Both the position numbers and the translations under genes were made by a program. Shown here piece by piece: positions 29,310-49,913 of a DNA stretch of 64,000 nt. Position 1 is the first letter of the stretch. The number at the start of each line of letters is the position of its first letter. The DNA comes from an uncultured Clostridia bacterium (GTDB lineage Bacteria; Bacillota; Clostridia; Christensenellales; UBA1242), in the NCBI GenBank assembly GCA_944350115.1, contig CALVNZ010000003.1:1-64000 (forward strand), read 5' to 3'. Under the pieces are notes generated by a model. It ran no database searches. It saw only the letters and a list, made by a program, of their open reading frames with translations, and was not told the origin of the DNA.

Positions 29310-29385
29310 GGTCCACTAGCTCAGTCGGTAGAGCACTTGACTTTTAATCAAGGGGTCCCGGGTTCGAGCCCCGGGTGGGCCACCA
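29310..29385 (+). tRNA. tRNA-Lys (anticodon TTT)
   Basis: Acceptor GGTCCAC/GTGGGCC, anticodon stem CTTGA/TCAAG with loop CTTTTAA (anticodon UUU), T arm CCCGG-GTTCGAGC-CCGGG and encoded CCA. Last gene of the tRNA run, followed by a terminator. Confidence 0.97.
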
Positions 29386-29387
29386 AA

Positions 29388-29414
29388 AAGCGCTTCAAAA
29401 TGAAGTGTTTTTTT
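29388..29414 (+). terminator. Terminator of the tRNA operon
   Basis: AAGCGCTTC-AAAAT-GAAGTGTTT, nine pairs with two G-T, then T residues, starting three bases after the tRNA-Lys CCA. Confidence 0.8.
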
Positions 29415-29466: not shown

Positions 29467-29495
29467 TTGACTTTTCAAGTCTATTATTTTATACT
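29467..29495 (+). promoter_or_regulatory. Promoter of the unknown paralogous pair
   Basis: TTGACT (29467-29472), 17 bases, TATACT (29490-29495). GACTT-TTC-AAGTC (29469-29481) forms an inverted repeat overlapping the -35. The leader to the first ATG is about 70 bases and AT-rich. Confidence 0.7.
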
Positions 29496-29574
29496 TTTAA
29501 AGTGTTTTTATTTTAAAATTAATCATAAAAAATTATATAAAAAGTTATCTTTAAAATGTTGCAGGAGATTTAAA

Positions 29575-30282
29575 ATGGCAGATTATATAGAAAATGACTT
29601 AAAAAATTTGTTAGATGAAGGGCATACATTGATTGAAGCAAGAGCGAAAGGGTTAGATATTGGAAATTTTCCAAACAAAAAATTTACCGCTTATGCAATG
29701 CCACAAAACGATTTTCCAGACGATTATTTTGAATTGCAAAATGAGGGCAAATACTATTTTAAACTTGACCGCATTTATGATTATAGAAGACTTCCACAGC
29801 TGGGTATAATCTTAAAAGACGGCACAATTATTCATGTAGATGAATGGCATTTAAAGCATGCGTTATGGTTAAAATTTAACAAACCAGATGGAAAAAATTT
29901 TACAGATCTTGAAGGAAGCATAAACTACATTTATTTTAAAGAGAGCGCGTTTAGAGCGCCATATTTGTCATTTGTTCAAGGGTATGATTATAAAAAAGTG
30001 AACAACACAAATTTATACGAATTGATATCGCAATGGTATGATAAGCGTGAAAGAGAAGAAGGTTTTGTTGGAGTCAGTTTGACGGAAAATCAAGTTTTGG
30101 CAATTTTAGGGTTGTGTGGTAAATTTCATTTAAAATTTGATGATGTTGTTTATAAAAATGTCAGTTTTTGTTTAGATTCAACCGAACAAGGATTGAGAAA
30201 AATTGGAAGGGACAACGAAGACACAATAAATTGTGCTTTTAGAATGAGAAGAAAAAAAGAAAGAGACGGGATTCAAAGATGA
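29575..30282 (+). CDS. Protein of unknown function, paralog 1
   Basis: 235 residues from ATG 29575 with CAGGAGA before it; the longer reading from 29467 starts in the promoter. No signal peptide, membrane span or known motif. Soluble, charged, rich in Asp, Tyr and Phe. It shares with the next gene the blocks LLDEGHTLIEAR (residues about 11-22), F-PDDYF, a central LPQ-G-ILKDGTI-V…H…LWLK-N, Y-YF, and the end GRDN-DT, so the two are tandem duplicates that have diverged. The last four bases overlap the next start. It lies between the tRNA-Lys terminator and a tRNA-Gln, a typical place for gene gain. I do not recognise the family. Confidence 0.8.
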   Translation: MADYIENDLKNLLDEGHTLIEARAKGLDIGNFPNKKFTAYAMPQNDFPDDYFELQNEGKYYFKLDRIYDYRRLPQLGIILKDGTIIHVDEWHLKHALWLKFNKPDGKNFTDLEGSINYIYFKESAFRAPYLSFVQGYDYKKVNNTNLYELISQWYDKREREEGFVGVSLTENQVLAILGLCGKFHLKFDDVVYKNVSFCLDSTEQGLRKIGRDNEDTINCAFRMRRKKERDGIQR

Positions 30283-30950
30283 GCAAAAACCAAGATTTAA
30301 AAAAAATGTTAGATGAAGGGCATACATTGATTGAAGCTAGAAAAGAAATTGATGTTGATGATTGTTTGGACAAACAATTCAGGCTTTCATTTGATGAAAA
30401 TTTTTATCCTGATGATTATTTCGACGATTCGTATGAAGGCATAGAATTTTTTAAATTAAAAAATATAAGAAATTATAAAACCTTACCACAAGTTGGTCTT
30501 ATTTTGAAAGATGGGACAATTTTTAGTGTAAAAGCTTTTCATATTGAACTCACTTTATGGTTAAAGTATAATGGCGTAGATATTACAAACAGCTTGAAAT
30601 ATGTTTATTTTCCTGACACGAAAAGATTAAGCATAATAGAAGGTTATGACTATGAATATGCGACGGATGAGAATGATATCAATAAACTTTGTGAAAGATG
30701 GAAGGATATTTACGAAGGTGAAAGTCTTGATACTGATTTAGTTTTGACAGACCCACAAGCTTTTGTTATTTGCAAATTAGCGGATTATTTCGGTTTAGAT
30801 AGAGATGAAGTTTTCACAAGTAACAATGGTTTTAGAATGTGTGAATCTTGGCAAGTTGATCCCAAAAGAAGAAAAGTGGGCAGAGATAATTGGGACACGG
30901 TTGATAGAAGTTTCAAATTGTTCTCAAAAGGAACTTCTTTTGTTCGTTAA
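30279..30950 (+). CDS. Protein of unknown function, paralog 2
   Basis: 223 residues, translationally coupled to paralog 1 (ATGA overlap). The shared blocks are MLDEGHTLIEARKE, YPDDYFDD, LPQVGLILKDGTIFSV, LWLKYNG, KYVYFPD and VGRDNWDTVDRSF. The alignable order is the same along the full length, which argues for one domain family of about 220 residues rather than short shared motifs. No Cys pairs, Walker box or helix-turn-helix is apparent. No terminator follows; the tRNA-Gln promoter begins 15 bases later. Function unknown. Confidence 0.8.
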   Translation: MSKNQDLKKMLDEGHTLIEARKEIDVDDCLDKQFRLSFDENFYPDDYFDDSYEGIEFFKLKNIRNYKTLPQVGLILKDGTIFSVKAFHIELTLWLKYNGVDITNSLKYVYFPDTKRLSIIEGYDYEYATDENDINKLCERWKDIYEGESLDTDLVLTDPQAFVICKLADYFGLDRDEVFTSNNGFRMCESWQVDPKRRKVGRDNWDTVDRSFKLFSKGTSFVR

Positions 30951-30964
30951 TTTATTTAAAAAGG

Positions 30965-30993
30965 TTGACTTTGTTTTTGCGTTTTGCTAAAAT
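30965..30993 (+). promoter_or_regulatory. Promoter of tRNA-Gln (TTG)
   Basis: TTGACT (30965-30970), 17 bases, TGCTAAAAT (hexamer 30988-30993, extended -10). The spacer again carries TTTTGCG, as in the other two tRNA promoters. Confidence 0.8.
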
Positions 30994-31013: not shown

Positions 31014-31088
31014 TGGGGTGTCGCCAAGTGGTAAGGCACAAGACTTTGACTCTTGCATGCGCAGGTTCAAATCCTGCCACCCCAGCCA
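31014..31088 (+). tRNA. tRNA-Gln (anticodon TTG)
   Basis: Acceptor TGGGGTG/CACCCCA, anticodon stem CAAGA/TCTTG with loop CTTTGAC (anticodon UUG), T arm GCAGG-TTCAAAT-CCTGC, G discriminator and encoded CCA. Close relative of the tRNA-Gln at 29187. Confidence 0.97.
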
Positions 31089-31113: not shown

Positions 31114-31265
31114 TTTTCAAGCTCAAGCTTGAAAAACTGCATATTGACGCTTAAAATTTTCTATTTTGCGACCAAACGAAAATCGCACTTACGTTGGCGA
31201 TTTTGTCGCAACTTTGAAATTAGGCAGGATTTGAACCTGCACCTCACCCGTACCGGCGGGGAACA
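31114..31265 (+). other. Structured non-coding stretch with an inverted tRNA-like piece
   Basis: Fills the 31089-31460 gap together with the terminator and promoter listed separately. From left: TTTTCAAGC-TCAA-GCTTGAAAA (31114-31135, 9 bp perfect); a two-part stem TTGCGAC..AAAATCGC / GCGATTTT-GTCGCAA (31166-31211); GGCAGGATTTGAACCTGC (31223-31240), exact reverse complement of the T arm of tRNA-Gln at 31061-31078; and CCCG-TACCGG-CGGG (31247-31260), which on the minus strand resembles the variable arm of a class II tRNA. No acceptor stem or 5' half accompanies the tRNA-like piece, so it is not a working tRNA. No coding frame. Confidence 0.6.
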
Positions 31266-44417: not shown

Positions 44418-45089
44418 ATGAAAGCAAAAATTATATCTTTAGTTTTGGGGCTTATATTTTTGATGTCATCCTTTATAATTGGAGATTGTTTGGTTTTTCA
44501 AAATACAATGGTGTCTGTAAAAGCGGCCACAACAGTTTCTGAAAATAAAGCGATTCAGCAAAAATTAAAAGAACTTGGATATTACACGGGTTCAGTTGAT
44601 GGCGTTTATGGCCAAGGCACAAGAAGTGCAGTCATTGCTTTTCAAAAAGCGAACGGTTTAACTGCCGATGGGGTTGTCGGGACTCAAACAGCGAAAGCTT
44701 TAGGTGTTACTTTAAATTCCGAAGAGGTTGCACAGTCCGGAAGTGATTTATATCTTCTTGCAAAATGTGTCTATTCCGAGGCAAGAGGAGAGCCTTATGA
44801 AGGACAAGTTGCTGTTGCTGCTGTGGTTTTAAACAGAGTTGAAAGTCCAGAATTTCCAAACACAATTTCAGAGGTAATTTATCAACCTTGGGCGTTTACA
44901 GCAGTGCATGATGGACAAATCAATTTAGAACCTGATTCTACAGCATACAGTGCTGCAAAAGATGCGATGAACGGATGGGATCCTACATATGGTTGTTTGT
45001 ATTATTATAATCCAGCCACTGCGACTAGCAGTTGGATTTTTACTAGAACCACAGTTGTAACAATAGGCAGACATGTGTTTGCGATTTAG
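44418..45089 (+). CDS. sleB: Spore cortex-lytic enzyme SleB
   Basis: 223 residues. A lytic transglycosylase acting on muramic-lactam cortex. Signal peptide (residues 1-37, ending VKAA), peptidoglycan-binding domain IQQKLKELGYYTGSVDGVYG…VGTQTAKALGV (45-95) and catalytic hydrolase_2 domain (KCVYSEARGEPYEGQVAVAAVVLNRV read in part, the Glu of SEARGEP being catalytic). It is followed by its partner ypeB at 9 bases. Only 22 bases separate it from spoIIR, so read-through from there is possible. Confidence 0.96.
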   Translation: MKAKIISLVLGLIFLMSSFIIGDCLVFQNTMVSVKAATTVSENKAIQQKLKELGYYTGSVDGVYGQGTRSAVIAFQKANGLTADGVVGTQTAKALGVTLNSEEVAQSGSDLYLLAKCVYSEARGEPYEGQVAVAAVVLNRVESPEFPNTISEVIYQPWAFTAVHDGQINLEPDSTAYSAAKDAMNGWDPTYGCLYYYNPATATSSWIFTRTTVVTIGRHVFAI

Positions 45090-45098
45090 GAGGAGAGT

Positions 45099-46487
45099 AT
45101 GAAAAAAAATCAAGATGTTTTAGGTGAAAACAAAACAAACAAAAAACATTATTCCAAAAGCGTTGTTATGGGTCTTTCGATTTCTACAGCGATATTAGCT
45201 TTGTCAACAGTAGGCTTAGGAATTGCATTTGGGGTTGCACAATCTAAAAGTGACAGTTATGGAATACAGCTTGAAAATGTTTATCAAAAAAATATGTATG
45301 ATTTAGTTGAAAGCGTAAACAATGTTGAAACAAAATTAAGCAAGGTTCTTGCTTCAAACAGCAACTCTTATCGAAAAAAACTTTTAAATGAAGTCGCGCA
45401 AGATTCAGAACTTGCTCAAAACGCTGTTTCTGGATTGCCATTATCTGCAAATTCATTATCTCAAAGCGTTAAATTTATTAATCAGTTGGGTGGCTATTCA
45501 CAAACTTTGGCAGATTCGTTGGCGCAAGGGAAAGCGTTAACTGAAAATGATTTGGAAACAATAGGAAAATTGCATCAAAGCGTCAAAGATATGAAAAAAG
45601 AAATAAACAAATTTTCACAAAAGACTCAAAACGACTATTCAATTTTAAATCAAAGTTTGCTTCTTAATGGTGATTACAACAACTTTACTATTGAGTTAAG
45701 TAAAATTAAAGGTGACAATATGGACTATCCTGTTATGATATATGATGGGCCTTTTTCAGATTCTACTCTTGACAAAACAGTTAAAGGGCTTTCTGGAGAA
45801 AGCAAAGACAAAGATCAGTGCAAACAAGAAATTGAAAAATGTTTCAAAAATTTGGCCAGCATACAATATAATGGAGAAACTAATGGAAGATTTAACACTT
45901 ATACATATAATGTCACAAATACAGATTCACAAAAACTTTTTGTTCAGGTTTCAAAAATCGGCGGGCATGTCATTACTGTAAGCGGACGAGGAAGTGAAAG
46001 CAATGAAAAAAATATTAATGAAGAATCTGCAAAAAACATAGCCTTGGATTTTGCCAAAGAAAATGGAATTGAAAATCCACAAGTTGTTTGGAGTGACAGC
46101 TTAAAGAATAGTTTCTATTTAAACATAGCTCCTACTCAAAACGGCATTGTCCTTTATCCAGATTTAGTGAAAGTTAAAGTTGATTTAGGAAGTGGAAGTG
46201 TTGTCGGTTATGATTCTACAAGTTACTTCATGAATCATGTCAACAGAAAATTGAGCCAACCTACGCACACAGCAAAAGAGTTTAAATCATCTCTTCCAAA
46301 AGACATGACTGTCAAAAACATGCGAGCTGTCTTAGCTCCGCTTGACTATAATAGAGAGGTTTTGTGTTTTGAATATGAATGTGAAAAGAATGGTAGTACT
46401 TATTATTTTTACCTTAATGCGTTAAATGGGAAAGAAGAAAATGTTTTGAAAGTAATACAAACGCAAGATGGTAGTAAATTGTTTTAA
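45099..46487 (+). CDS. ypeB: Germination protein YpeB
   Basis: 462 residues. Required for SleB stability and inhibition in the spore. One N-terminal membrane anchor (residues 20-45), a helical region, and three PepSY-like beta units at the C-terminal half (…ISKIGGHVITVSGRG…, ESAKNIALDFAKENGIENPQVV). sleB-ypeB bicistronic organisation is conserved in endospore formers. Terminator at 46491. Confidence 0.94.
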   Translation: MKKNQDVLGENKTNKKHYSKSVVMGLSISTAILALSTVGLGIAFGVAQSKSDSYGIQLENVYQKNMYDLVESVNNVETKLSKVLASNSNSYRKKLLNEVAQDSELAQNAVSGLPLSANSLSQSVKFINQLGGYSQTLADSLAQGKALTENDLETIGKLHQSVKDMKKEINKFSQKTQNDYSILNQSLLLNGDYNNFTIELSKIKGDNMDYPVMIYDGPFSDSTLDKTVKGLSGESKDKDQCKQEIEKCFKNLASIQYNGETNGRFNTYTYNVTNTDSQKLFVQVSKIGGHVITVSGRGSESNEKNINEESAKNIALDFAKENGIENPQVVWSDSLKNSFYLNIAPTQNGIVLYPDLVKVKVDLGSGSVVGYDSTSYFMNHVNRKLSQPTHTAKEFKSSLPKDMTVKNMRAVLAPLDYNREVLCFEYECEKNGSTYYFYLNALNGKEENVLKVIQTQDGSKLF

Positions 46488-46568: not shown

Positions 46569-46609
46569 TTGACAGAAACCCTCCGCTGGTTTATAATTTA
46601 TTGCGGAGG
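46569..46609 (+). promoter_or_regulatory. Promoter of the GLUG protein, with inverted repeat about the -10
   Basis: TTGACA (46569-46574), 17 bases, TATAAT (46592-46597): perfect consensus. CCTCCGC (46580-46586) and GCGGAGG (46603-46609) form an inverted repeat whose centre falls on the -10; the right arm holds the ribosome-binding site. Confidence 0.85.
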
Positions 46610-46613
46610 AATT

Positions 46614-49600
46614 ATGAAAAAACTCTTGATGTATCTCGTTGTAGCCATTGTGGTTGTCACTTGTGGTTTTTCAATTTATTATGTGGTAAGAAACAACGAA
46701 GAAATTAAAGCTTTGGAGCTAACAGATAAAGTATTTTATATGAATGAGGGGGAGACCCTCTCTATTCCTTTAGAATATTCAAATCCTTCGCCACACACAG
46801 ATTTTACATACACTATTGAACAAGGGTATGAAGATTACGTTACAATTGACCTTGAAAATTGGACCATTACTGCAAATAAATCGGGGCTTGTCAATGTTGT
46901 TTTCACATCTACAAATGATGAATATTCAAAATTTGAAGTCCCATGCAAAATTGGGAACGGCTCTATAACTTCGCCTTGGTATATTAGGAATGGTGAAGAT
47001 TTACAAAACATTGGAAAAGGAAATTATTTGTATTCAGATTCTTATGAAATTACAACAGACATCAGTGTTGGAGAAATGCTCCCTATAGGTGTTGAAATAA
47101 GCGATGATGGTTCTATCTCAGTGCATGAATTTACAGGTTCTATTTCTGGTGGAACGAAGAGATACGCAATCAAAGATGCAGTTGTAAAACAAGGTGATTT
47201 AAACTTTAATGTCGGTGGAATTTTTGCAATTGTTGGCAGCACTGGTAAAATTGAAAACGTAAGATTTGAAAACATTTCAGTTGTTGGTGAGTATGCTTAT
47301 GCAGGAGTTGTTGCAGGTGCAAATTATGGATTAATTGGCATGTGTGAAGTTAAAGACAGTGAAGTTGTGAACACTCTTGAAACTATGTCTTTTACGGGCG
47401 GAATATGCGGGTTAAATCAACATTACCCTGGAAGCAGTAACTATGCTCAAGTGAACATTTGTTCATCAGATGTTTCAATAACTTCAAAATGGGTCGCAGG
47501 AGGCGCTGTTGGATATAATAAAGGCGGAGTTATTTTTAACTGTTTGATTAAAACTCGTTCATTAGATTTGCAAGTCAAAGAAGGCGAATCGTCAATCTAT
47601 TCATATTTTGGCGGAGTGGCAGGGGTTTCAGTTTGTGCTGTTAATGGTGAAGATTCTTATGACAGTTATGTTTCAAACTGTTTAGTTTACATCAATGGCG
47701 TAAAATCAACAGAATCTCATATTGCCGGAGTGTTTGGGGCTTATTATGGTGTAAGCGGTGTATACGAAGCACAGGGCAATTATAATATGATTTTCTACAT
47801 CGCAGAATCTTCAATCAAACCTTATTATCTTCATGATGATGAACAAATCATTTCTGACGAAAATCCAAATTCTGCAAAAAATTATGTTAAACAAATATCC
47901 AGTGAAGAAGCTTTGCAAAAGACGACTTACACTTCAATTCCAAACAATAGGTGGGATTTTGATTATATTTGGGTTATAGACGACCAATTAAGATACATTG
48001 ATTTGCAATTTACAACAAATGAAGAAGGCGACAATCCATATCAATATTTCCCAGCGAATGGAAGCACGTATATTATAAATTCCGAAGAAACCTTTAAAGA
48101 AGCTCTTGACAACATGAGGGGCAAACCATCGCAATCAATAGTATATGTTTTTGAAAAGAGCATCGTTTTAGATTGTAGCGACGAAGTTTGGACTCCTATT
48201 GGAACCAAAGAATCACCATTTATGGGTCAAATTATAATGGAAGAAAACGTTTATATTGTGCTCAAAAATGTGACTGTTTCTTCTGCAACTTATACCGGTC
48301 TTTTTGGATATGTTTCAGGTGTTAACACGATAATTCAAAATATTTATATAGATAATTTAATAATAAATGGTGGAACAGTTGTTGGTGGAATAGTAGGATT
48401 CAACGATGGCGCGACAATTCAAAATTGTGTTATTAACAATTTCAATATTTGTGGTGACAAATATATTGGAACATTTGCTGGTTTTAATAGTGGAACTATT
48501 TCAAATTGCAAATTCAACATTAGTTATGAAATTAGAGATGCAAAAGATGAAGAAGCCGATATCTATGGTGATATTAAGATTTATGGTTGCACAGAAACAA
48601 ATGGCACAAAAGGATATCAAGAATTAAGCAACCCGGCAATTATAATTGATGAAGAAGGTGAATTTTTGCTTGCAATTTCTGGAAAAAAGGTTTATGACAC
48701 TGTTTATGCGAAAATAGTAACAGAAGGGGCAGACGGAGCAGAATCATCAGAAGCAGAATCGTCAGAATTTGTAGAACTTGATTCAGATGAAGTTTTGGCA
48801 TATGATGAAAAAACTAATGAACCGATCTCATCCCTTTATGGAGAAGGGCAAACGAGCATATCTGATCAGTACAGTCAAATTATGTATGTCGGTGGTTTTA
48901 TTGGGAAAAATCAAGGGTCTTTAAACTCTGGTGTTGGACTTAAAAATTATATCAGTGTTGATTTTATAGGCACTGACAATAGTTTGTATATCGGAGGAGT
49001 TGTTGGGTTAAATTCTGGCATAGTAAATGATGTTTGGATTAGCGACCTTACAATGGCAGCTTCAAAATATTCAGGTCTCGTTTATGCTGGCGGTATTGCA
49101 GGATTTCAAGATAGTGGCAAAATTTCTTCTTGTGTTGTTAATGCAACTAATAATATAGAATTTTCAGTTAACAACACTTCTTCTATAGCAGGAGGAATTG
49201 CCGGTTTCCTTGGCGCTGAATCATCAATTTTGTATTCTTCTGTTGGCGTCATGACAATAACGGCTTGTTCAGCAGGGGGATTTGTTGGGATAGGTAATGG
49301 ACTTATTCAAGAAAGTTATGTAACTAAAAACACAACTTTAAATGCGGCTTATGCAGGTGGCTTTGCTTGCACATTAAATGGGCAAATCAACAATTGTATG
49401 TCAGCGGCATCAGTTAAGGGCTCTGTAATTCAAGCAGGCATGACTGTTTATTTGAGAAAGGGCTCGCACATTGACAAATGTTATGTTGACATTGGGTTTG
49501 GGACGGATAATGTCGGAGCAACATATGCTGAAACATCTTCATATTTTAGAGTAAAAGAAAATGAAGAAAAGTTTGGTTGTATAACAAACACACTTTTTGT

Positions 49601-49913
49601 TGGAGATACTGGCTCATCAAAATTGGTTTTTGGTTATCCTATTTATTTACAATATGGTATGGTAAATGGCACTTTGGCACCATATGTGACTATTGGAGGC
49701 ACAAACGCTCAGGTTCAAGCATATTTTGTTTGGTGGTGGAAAGGTTTTAGTGGGAATGCAAAAGATGCCGTTGTCACATCAACTTCAAGCCTTTGCGGGC
49801 AAGGCTCAGCTTTGATTTCAATGGGCTTTGATCAATTTGTTTGGGGATATAACACAGGTGGAAATTATTATGTTATTCCAGCAAATGCAGCGGGAAATGA
49901 TGCTGCTTGCTGA
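46614..49913 (+). CDS. Large surface protein with GLUG-type repeats
   Basis: 1099 residues from ATG 46614 (GCGGAGGAATT upstream). Residues 4-27 are one membrane anchor; the rest is outside. At least nine repeats share the pattern (A/G)GG(I/V)(A/V/C)G-N-G-I-(N/S)C, e.g. VVGGIVGFNDGATIQNC, YIGGVVGLNSGIVNDVW, YAGGIAGFQDSGKISSC and AGGFVGIGNGLIQES, typical of GLUG-type beta-helix adhesins. They cluster at about residues 200-380 and 560-980. There is an Ala/Ser/Glu-rich linker near 700. No LPXTG. It is monocistronic with a consensus sigma-A promoter, so probably vegetative. Role: adhesion or envelope layer, inferred. Confidence 0.8.
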   Translation: MKKLLMYLVVAIVVVTCGFSIYYVVRNNEEIKALELTDKVFYMNEGETLSIPLEYSNPSPHTDFTYTIEQGYEDYVTIDLENWTITANKSGLVNVVFTSTNDEYSKFEVPCKIGNGSITSPWYIRNGEDLQNIGKGNYLYSDSYEITTDISVGEMLPIGVEISDDGSISVHEFTGSISGGTKRYAIKDAVVKQGDLNFNVGGIFAIVGSTGKIENVRFENISVVGEYAYAGVVAGANYGLIGMCEVKDSEVVNTLETMSFTGGICGLNQHYPGSSNYAQVNICSSDVSITSKWVAGGAVGYNKGGVIFNCLIKTRSLDLQVKEGESSIYSYFGGVAGVSVCAVNGEDSYDSYVSNCLVYINGVKSTESHIAGVFGAYYGVSGVYEAQGNYNMIFYIAESSIKPYYLHDDEQIISDENPNSAKNYVKQISSEEALQKTTYTSIPNNRWDFDYIWVIDDQLRYIDLQFTTNEEGDNPYQYFPANGSTYIINSEETFKEALDNMRGKPSQSIVYVFEKSIVLDCSDEVWTPIGTKESPFMGQIIMEENVYIVLKNVTVSSATYTGLFGYVSGVNTIIQNIYIDNLIINGGTVVGGIVGFNDGATIQNCVINNFNICGDKYIGTFAGFNSGTISNCKFNISYEIRDAKDEEADIYGDIKIYGCTETNGTKGYQELSNPAIIIDEEGEFLLAISGKKVYDTVYAKIVTEGADGAESSEAESSEFVELDSDEVLAYDEKTNEPISSLYGEGQTSISDQYSQIMYVGGFIGKNQGSLNSGVGLKNYISVDFIGTDNSLYIGGVVGLNSGIVNDVWISDLTMAASKYSGLVYAGGIAGFQDSGKISSCVVNATNNIEFSVNNTSSIAGGIAGFLGAESSILYSSVGVMTITACSAGGFVGIGNGLIQESYVTKNTTLNAAYAGGFACTLNGQINNCMSAASVKGSVIQAGMTVYLRKGSHIDKCYVDIGFGTDNVGATYAETSSYFRVKENEEKFGCITNTLFVGDTGSSKLVFGYPIYLQYGMVNGTLAPYVTIGGTNAQVQAYFVWWWKGFSGNAKDAVVTSTSSLCGQGSALISMGFDQFVWGYNTGGNYYVIPANAAGNDAAC

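Follow-up and report, generated by a model that had tools for sequence, protein, structure and literature searches.

Two overlapping genes, here called A and B, lie between a tRNA-Lys and a tRNA-Gln gene in the 865,569-base genome of an uncultured Clostridia bacterium. What family do they belong to, how did they come to occupy this slot, and what might they do there? We examined the pair within the window, the 64,000-nucleotide stretch of DNA analysed here, and compared it with the corresponding loci of related genomes.

Anatomy of the gene pair and its slot

Gene A (P0001; 29575-30282, + strand) was called as an open reading frame of 235 aa with an ATG start, and gene B (P0002; 30279-30950, + strand) as one of 223 aa. 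Both frames are open and co-directional and overlap by 4 bases, ATGA. An AGGAG ribosome site precedes A at 29563-29567 and B is without a strong ribosome site of its own; translation of B is probably coupled to that of A via the ATGA. In BLASTP, A and B are identical at 88 of 224 positions (39%) in a near full-length alignment. The E value of 3e-45 over nearly the full length places the similarity far above chance, and A and B are true paralogs, as the initial annotation had proposed in describing a coupled tandem pair with a 4-base overlap. They are the only copies of the family in the genome. Their GC content is 0.31-0.32 compared to 0.355 for the window, and base composition is uninformative.

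The ordered motifs previously listed as shared by the two proteins are all present, except that A reads IGRDNEDT rather than VGRDN-DT. One of them, LDEGHTLIEAR, needs a different reading. It lies within a 48-nt 5' tract of A (29596-29643, + strand) that is 92% identical to B 30294-30341 and is a probable gene-conversion tract, whereas A/B DNA identity outside the tract is roughly 40-65% by block. At this place the two orthologs in G032 read LKSGATLIEAR and LIEGKSLIEAR. Since the tract stands out from the remainder of the genes and the G032 orthologs differ, local gene conversion is the simplest reading, which suggests that the perfect agreement of A and B over LDEGHTLIEAR is in part deceptive and does not mark an ancestral motif.

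The upstream edge of the slot is tRNA-Lys (ttt) at 29310-29385 (+ strand), identified by ARAGORN and Rfam and conserved as the edge in four relatives (G032, G025, G005 and G088). Its intrinsic terminator follows at 29385-29413 (+ strand), and terminator-like hairpins are found at the same position in relatives. A sigma-70-type promoter-like site for A/B, TTGACT-17-TATACT, lies beyond the terminator at 29467-29495 (+ strand). Alone it is not above chance, as 12 promoter-like sites were found in this AT-rich stretch against 9.1 expected. G025, G005 and G022 have a similar site in the corresponding position: there, as for A/B, the homolog is preceded by a hairpin resembling a terminator and by a site of the TTGA..TATAAT type, and these counterparts bear out the claim that the pair has its own promoter. 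A further promoter-like sequence, TTGACT-17-TAAAAT at 30965-30993 (+ strand), has similar TTGAC...TAAAAT counterparts in relatives and probably serves tRNA-Gln (ttg). This tRNA gene (31014-31088, + strand; ARAGORN) is the downstream edge of the slot, and the same edge is found in G032, G025, G005 and G088 and in the species with an empty slot. The idea that A and B are tRNA sequence misread as open reading frames was rejected, as the flanking tRNAs terminate outside both genes.

Three other features of the window were observed. On the - strand at 31223-31240 there is an 18-nt perfect inverted match to the tRNA-Gln T arm (31061-31078); it sits in a tRNA-like 3' fragment, not called by ARAGORN, that lies before ppdK and is possibly a tRNA remnant. 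At 44418-46487, adjacent open reading frames resemble by eye the spore-germination pair SleB and YpeB, here in an 865-kb genome. At 46569-49913, a repetitive 1114-aa protein is, by eye, probably surface-anchored.

Distribution, slot history and rate of change

Neither A nor B matched any Pfam, NCBIfam, PADLOC or PHROG model, and the relatives that were also scanned gave chance-level hits, apart from one family member that matched phrog_10858 on its C-terminus (E 2e-4, 39 residues). A PDB sequence search returned designed repeat proteins and chance matches only. The AlphaFold2 model of B was confident (pLDDT 90.9, pTM 0.88), with N-terminal helices, two beta hairpins parted by the WLK helix, and a helical C-terminal part. 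The search with this model returned nothing informative: the best Foldseek E values were 1.1 against the PDB and 0.13 against a viral structure library, and the best VIA Z was 2.6. This lack of a match in PDB and viral structures does not prove a new fold. No catalytic signature was recognised in the A/B family, and literature searches yielded nothing useful. The profile scans agree with the initial description of an unrecognised family, and A and B are members of a clade-restricted protein family without a database name.

Searches covered 61 relatives, 112 genomes of the genus, 396 of the order and 391 of the class. Across these sets, homologs were confined to the genus and family of the window bacterium, with nothing convincing beyond the genus among the 391 class-level genomes. 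By profile and protein search, 6 of the 112 genus genomes carry close homologs, among them that of the window bacterium itself (G000). Three species carry A-B pairs (G000, G032 and G025), in each case with A before B, and three carry a single copy (G005, G088 and G022). A-type genes occur in five species including its own, with a pairwise dN of 0.29-0.50, and B-type genes also in G032 and G025. Remoter relatives, all single genes, were found in G102, G131, G024 and G021, and one relative in another genus of the same family (G289). A longer subfamily of 273-277 aa is present in G019, G035 and G117 and aligns with A/B in hhalign over a collinear core (Prob 75, P 2.5e-5); in these three genomes (L020, L050 and L051) it lies between tRNA-Met and a gene identified by eye as gyrB. 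With single copies in three close and all remoter relatives, the expectation that homologs always occur in pairs did not hold. No A/B homolog was found in phages or plasmids by tblastn. One viral contig match (L014) was rejected as a chance WLKYNGVD within a phage tail-like protein.

The tRNA-Lys to tRNA-Gln(ttg) slot is filled with family genes in G000, G032, G025, G005 and G088. In G022, where the locus is rearranged, the gene still adjoins the same tRNA-Gln, and the other tRNA genes of the array are ~5 kb away. The slot is empty in six species: G133, G093 and G079 (207-208 bp), G097 (86 bp), G100 (22 bp) and G002 (7 bp). Contigs of G016 and G089 break at the slot, and neither genome yielded a homolog when searched in full with the profile. 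The tRNA-flanked slot noted in the initial annotation is confirmed by these comparisons, its content being truly variable between sister species. In a PPDK tree all carriers fall within one 13-species clade, and at minimum 4 changes are needed, for example one gain and three losses. This distribution fits a gene gained once in the clade, duplicated in tandem and lost several times. A repeat of ~150 bp lies in the empty slots of G133, G093 and G079 and recurs in G032, where it flanks the filled slot on the left (L015 351-800 in G032, with two copies; L054 1293-1500 in G133; L055; L058). Since two copies of this gap repeat accompany the genes in G032, the gap in the three empty-slot species fits a secondary loss.

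The proteins have also diverged rapidly. Between G000 and G032, 44% of the residues of A and 45% of those of B differ (55-56% identical), compared with 4% in the neighbouring PPDK (96% identical). The corresponding dN is 0.40 for A/B and 0.037 for PPDK, and the rate contrast is one of dN alone, synonymous sites being saturated between species. With a dN/dS of ~0.28 for B, the A/B proteins are fast-evolving yet constrained. The A-clade and the B-clade were each monophyletic with moderate support (70/90 and 69/80), and these weakly supported separate clades suggest, weakly, that the A/B duplication predates the split of G000, G032 and G025.

The conserved core and a small phage module

A conserved core (G-x-I--DG--Y...H...WL-N...LTxxQ) was located in A at 29791-30177 (+ strand) by profile match of alignment A6, and in B at 30483-30842 (+ strand) by profile match and core alignment. 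Across all subfamilies in A6, the I, G, H, L and Q are invariant. A comparable arrangement, GW[LI]xPDGxFYxC...H...GWVKI...LTxxQ, was observed to be widespread in phages, where it stands alone or C-terminal in larger proteins; the members scanned had no Pfam match. Proteins with this phrog_30541-like module include Caulobacter phage CcrColossus gp323, Bacillus phage SP-15 SP15_194, Listeria phage LIS04_35 and Paenibacillus polymyxa plasmid proteins.

Sixteen viral contigs (L151-L166) were recovered with a degenerate DNA pattern for GW[IL]xPxGxFxxC. A His follows the hairpin in nearly all of them, and in most a strand and a T-x-x-Q helix come next. The pattern was chosen knowing the motif sought; only the shuffled-column control and the earlier phrog_30541 match to G102 are free of that bias. 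A module profile made from the viral pattern set together with annotated phage and plasmid proteins was aligned with the A/B core in hhalign (Prob 72, P 3.5e-5, score 30.5). The real score was above all 300 column-shuffled controls (mean 9.6, sd 2.1, maximum 19.5). Over the same stretch, phrog_30541 matched the relative in G102 weakly (E 0.0086), independently of the motif chosen for the pattern, and it matched the viral module proteins with E values of 2e-7 to 2e-4. A and B themselves gave no significant direct HMM match to the module. The single-sequence HMM comparison with it gave an E of about 1, below normal significance, the confident core/module alignment covers only ~35 columns, and an unrelated 929-aa open reading frame with a fortuitous DG...H match scored similarly to the module link. 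A single-sequence AlphaFold2 model of a phage module member had a pLDDT of 52, too poor for comparison.

Like the module, the A/B core has the G-x-[IL]-x2-[DNEK]-G-x-[FI]-[YF] hairpin, a His 15-16 residues past the first Gly, a hydrophobic helix, a strand and an LTxxQ helix. Unlike the module, the A/B family has G[IL]I and V or G where the module has GW and C, and SLRYVYF where it has GWVKI, so that the GW[VI]K[IV] strand is absent. A and B are also longer, by ~70 residues at the N-terminus and by at least 50 at the C-terminus. Because the GW, the Cys and the GW[VI]K[IV] strand are replaced, we do not file A and B as members of the module, only as possible remote relatives. The comparison gives moderate support to the A/B core as a highly diverged relative of this small phage/plasmid module, and remote common descent of the two is on balance probable.

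Origin and possible role of the pair

Taken together, we tentatively favour a fast-evolving, clade-restricted accessory gene that was tandem-duplicated and whose core is possibly of phage-module ancestry. An ancestral gene would have become established in the tRNA-Lys/tRNA-Gln slot at the root of the 13-species clade in this genus of small-genome Clostridia, a tandem duplication would have given A and B, and several species would have lost both copies or B only. The core would have come from the phage/plasmid module, with its DG-containing beta hairpin, invariant His, helix, beta strand and LTxxQ helix, and would have been enlarged N- and C-terminally. A and B may be binding proteins, soluble in the cytosol and co-translated from a single transcript, and since they descend from one ancestor whose interface, likely homo-oligomeric, may have been retained, they may pair with each other. 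Their role might be accessory and non-essential, most plausibly in phage-host conflict, a guess prompted by the phage-like core and the pattern of gain and loss.

It is also quite possible that A and B belong to an ordinary lineage-specific family, housekeeping-adjacent or regulatory, which was born or diverged in the genus without phage ancestry. On this view the tRNA slot would be no more than an intergenic stretch that tolerates extra genes, and A and B would have arisen by tandem duplication without forming a heteromer. Consistent with this, the relatives all lie within one family, and the neighbours of the remoter ones are, by eye, the housekeeping genes peptidase U32, PNPase and gyrB, with no mobility genes seen. 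The score of the core against the phage module, higher than every shuffle, argues against such an origin, and repeated loss and location at two different tRNA loci look more like accessory cargo.

An unlikely reading is that A and B form a two-component anti-phage system in a tRNA-side defence slot. The variable slot with empty sites, the fast evolution and the phage-like core would suit it, but A and B had no PADLOC match to a known anti-phage defence system at E values up to 10, no catalytic motif was recognised, and singletons are common. When the open reading frames of the loci were read by eye, no defence, toxin-antitoxin, integrase or mobility gene was firmly recognised beside the family. 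The defence setting suggested for the homologs is not supported in the loci read, apart from one putative helicase-like open reading frame. This 691-aa frame adjoins the moved tRNA-Lys in G022 (L018 13916-15991, - strand); it has DEAH-like and TATP motifs, is type III restriction-like by eye, and had no PDB sequence match. A defence role and an A:B heteromer are both speculation, and it is improbable that the pair is at once an obligate two-subunit complex, a fold new to the PDB and a domesticated phage module that is anti-phage or regulates phage genes.

The locus documents an unnamed lineage-restricted family that holds a fixed tRNA slot in small-genome (0.9 Mb) Clostridia and is lost repeatedly. 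A phage module that is widespread but uncharacterised emerges as a candidate source of the A/B family. If the phage link is true, one solved member would aid the annotation of many phage proteins.

How does the locus compare with known systems? A toxin-antitoxin or immunity pair, suggested by two short overlapping genes, is very improbable, as A and B are homologous along their length rather than two unrelated proteins and members can stand alone (G005, G088 and G022). The remnant cargo of an integrative element that had used one of the two tRNA genes (tRNA-Lys or tRNA-Gln) for attachment is a doubtful explanation too. The position between tRNA genes and the single gain in one clade would agree with it, but, unlike an integrative element at a tRNA gene, the slot has no integrase and no flanking att direct repeat: it contains A and B only, and no tRNA 3'-end direct repeat was seen beyond the two complete tRNA-Gln genes. 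Slots for accessory genes beside tRNA genes are a general phenomenon, and the locus resembles them in its variable content between fixed tRNA genes and in its empty sites. It differs from them in having no integrase or att-like repeat and in that every filled slot carries the same genes, which suggests that they were gained once, long ago, and that the slot is not a hotspot of turnover.
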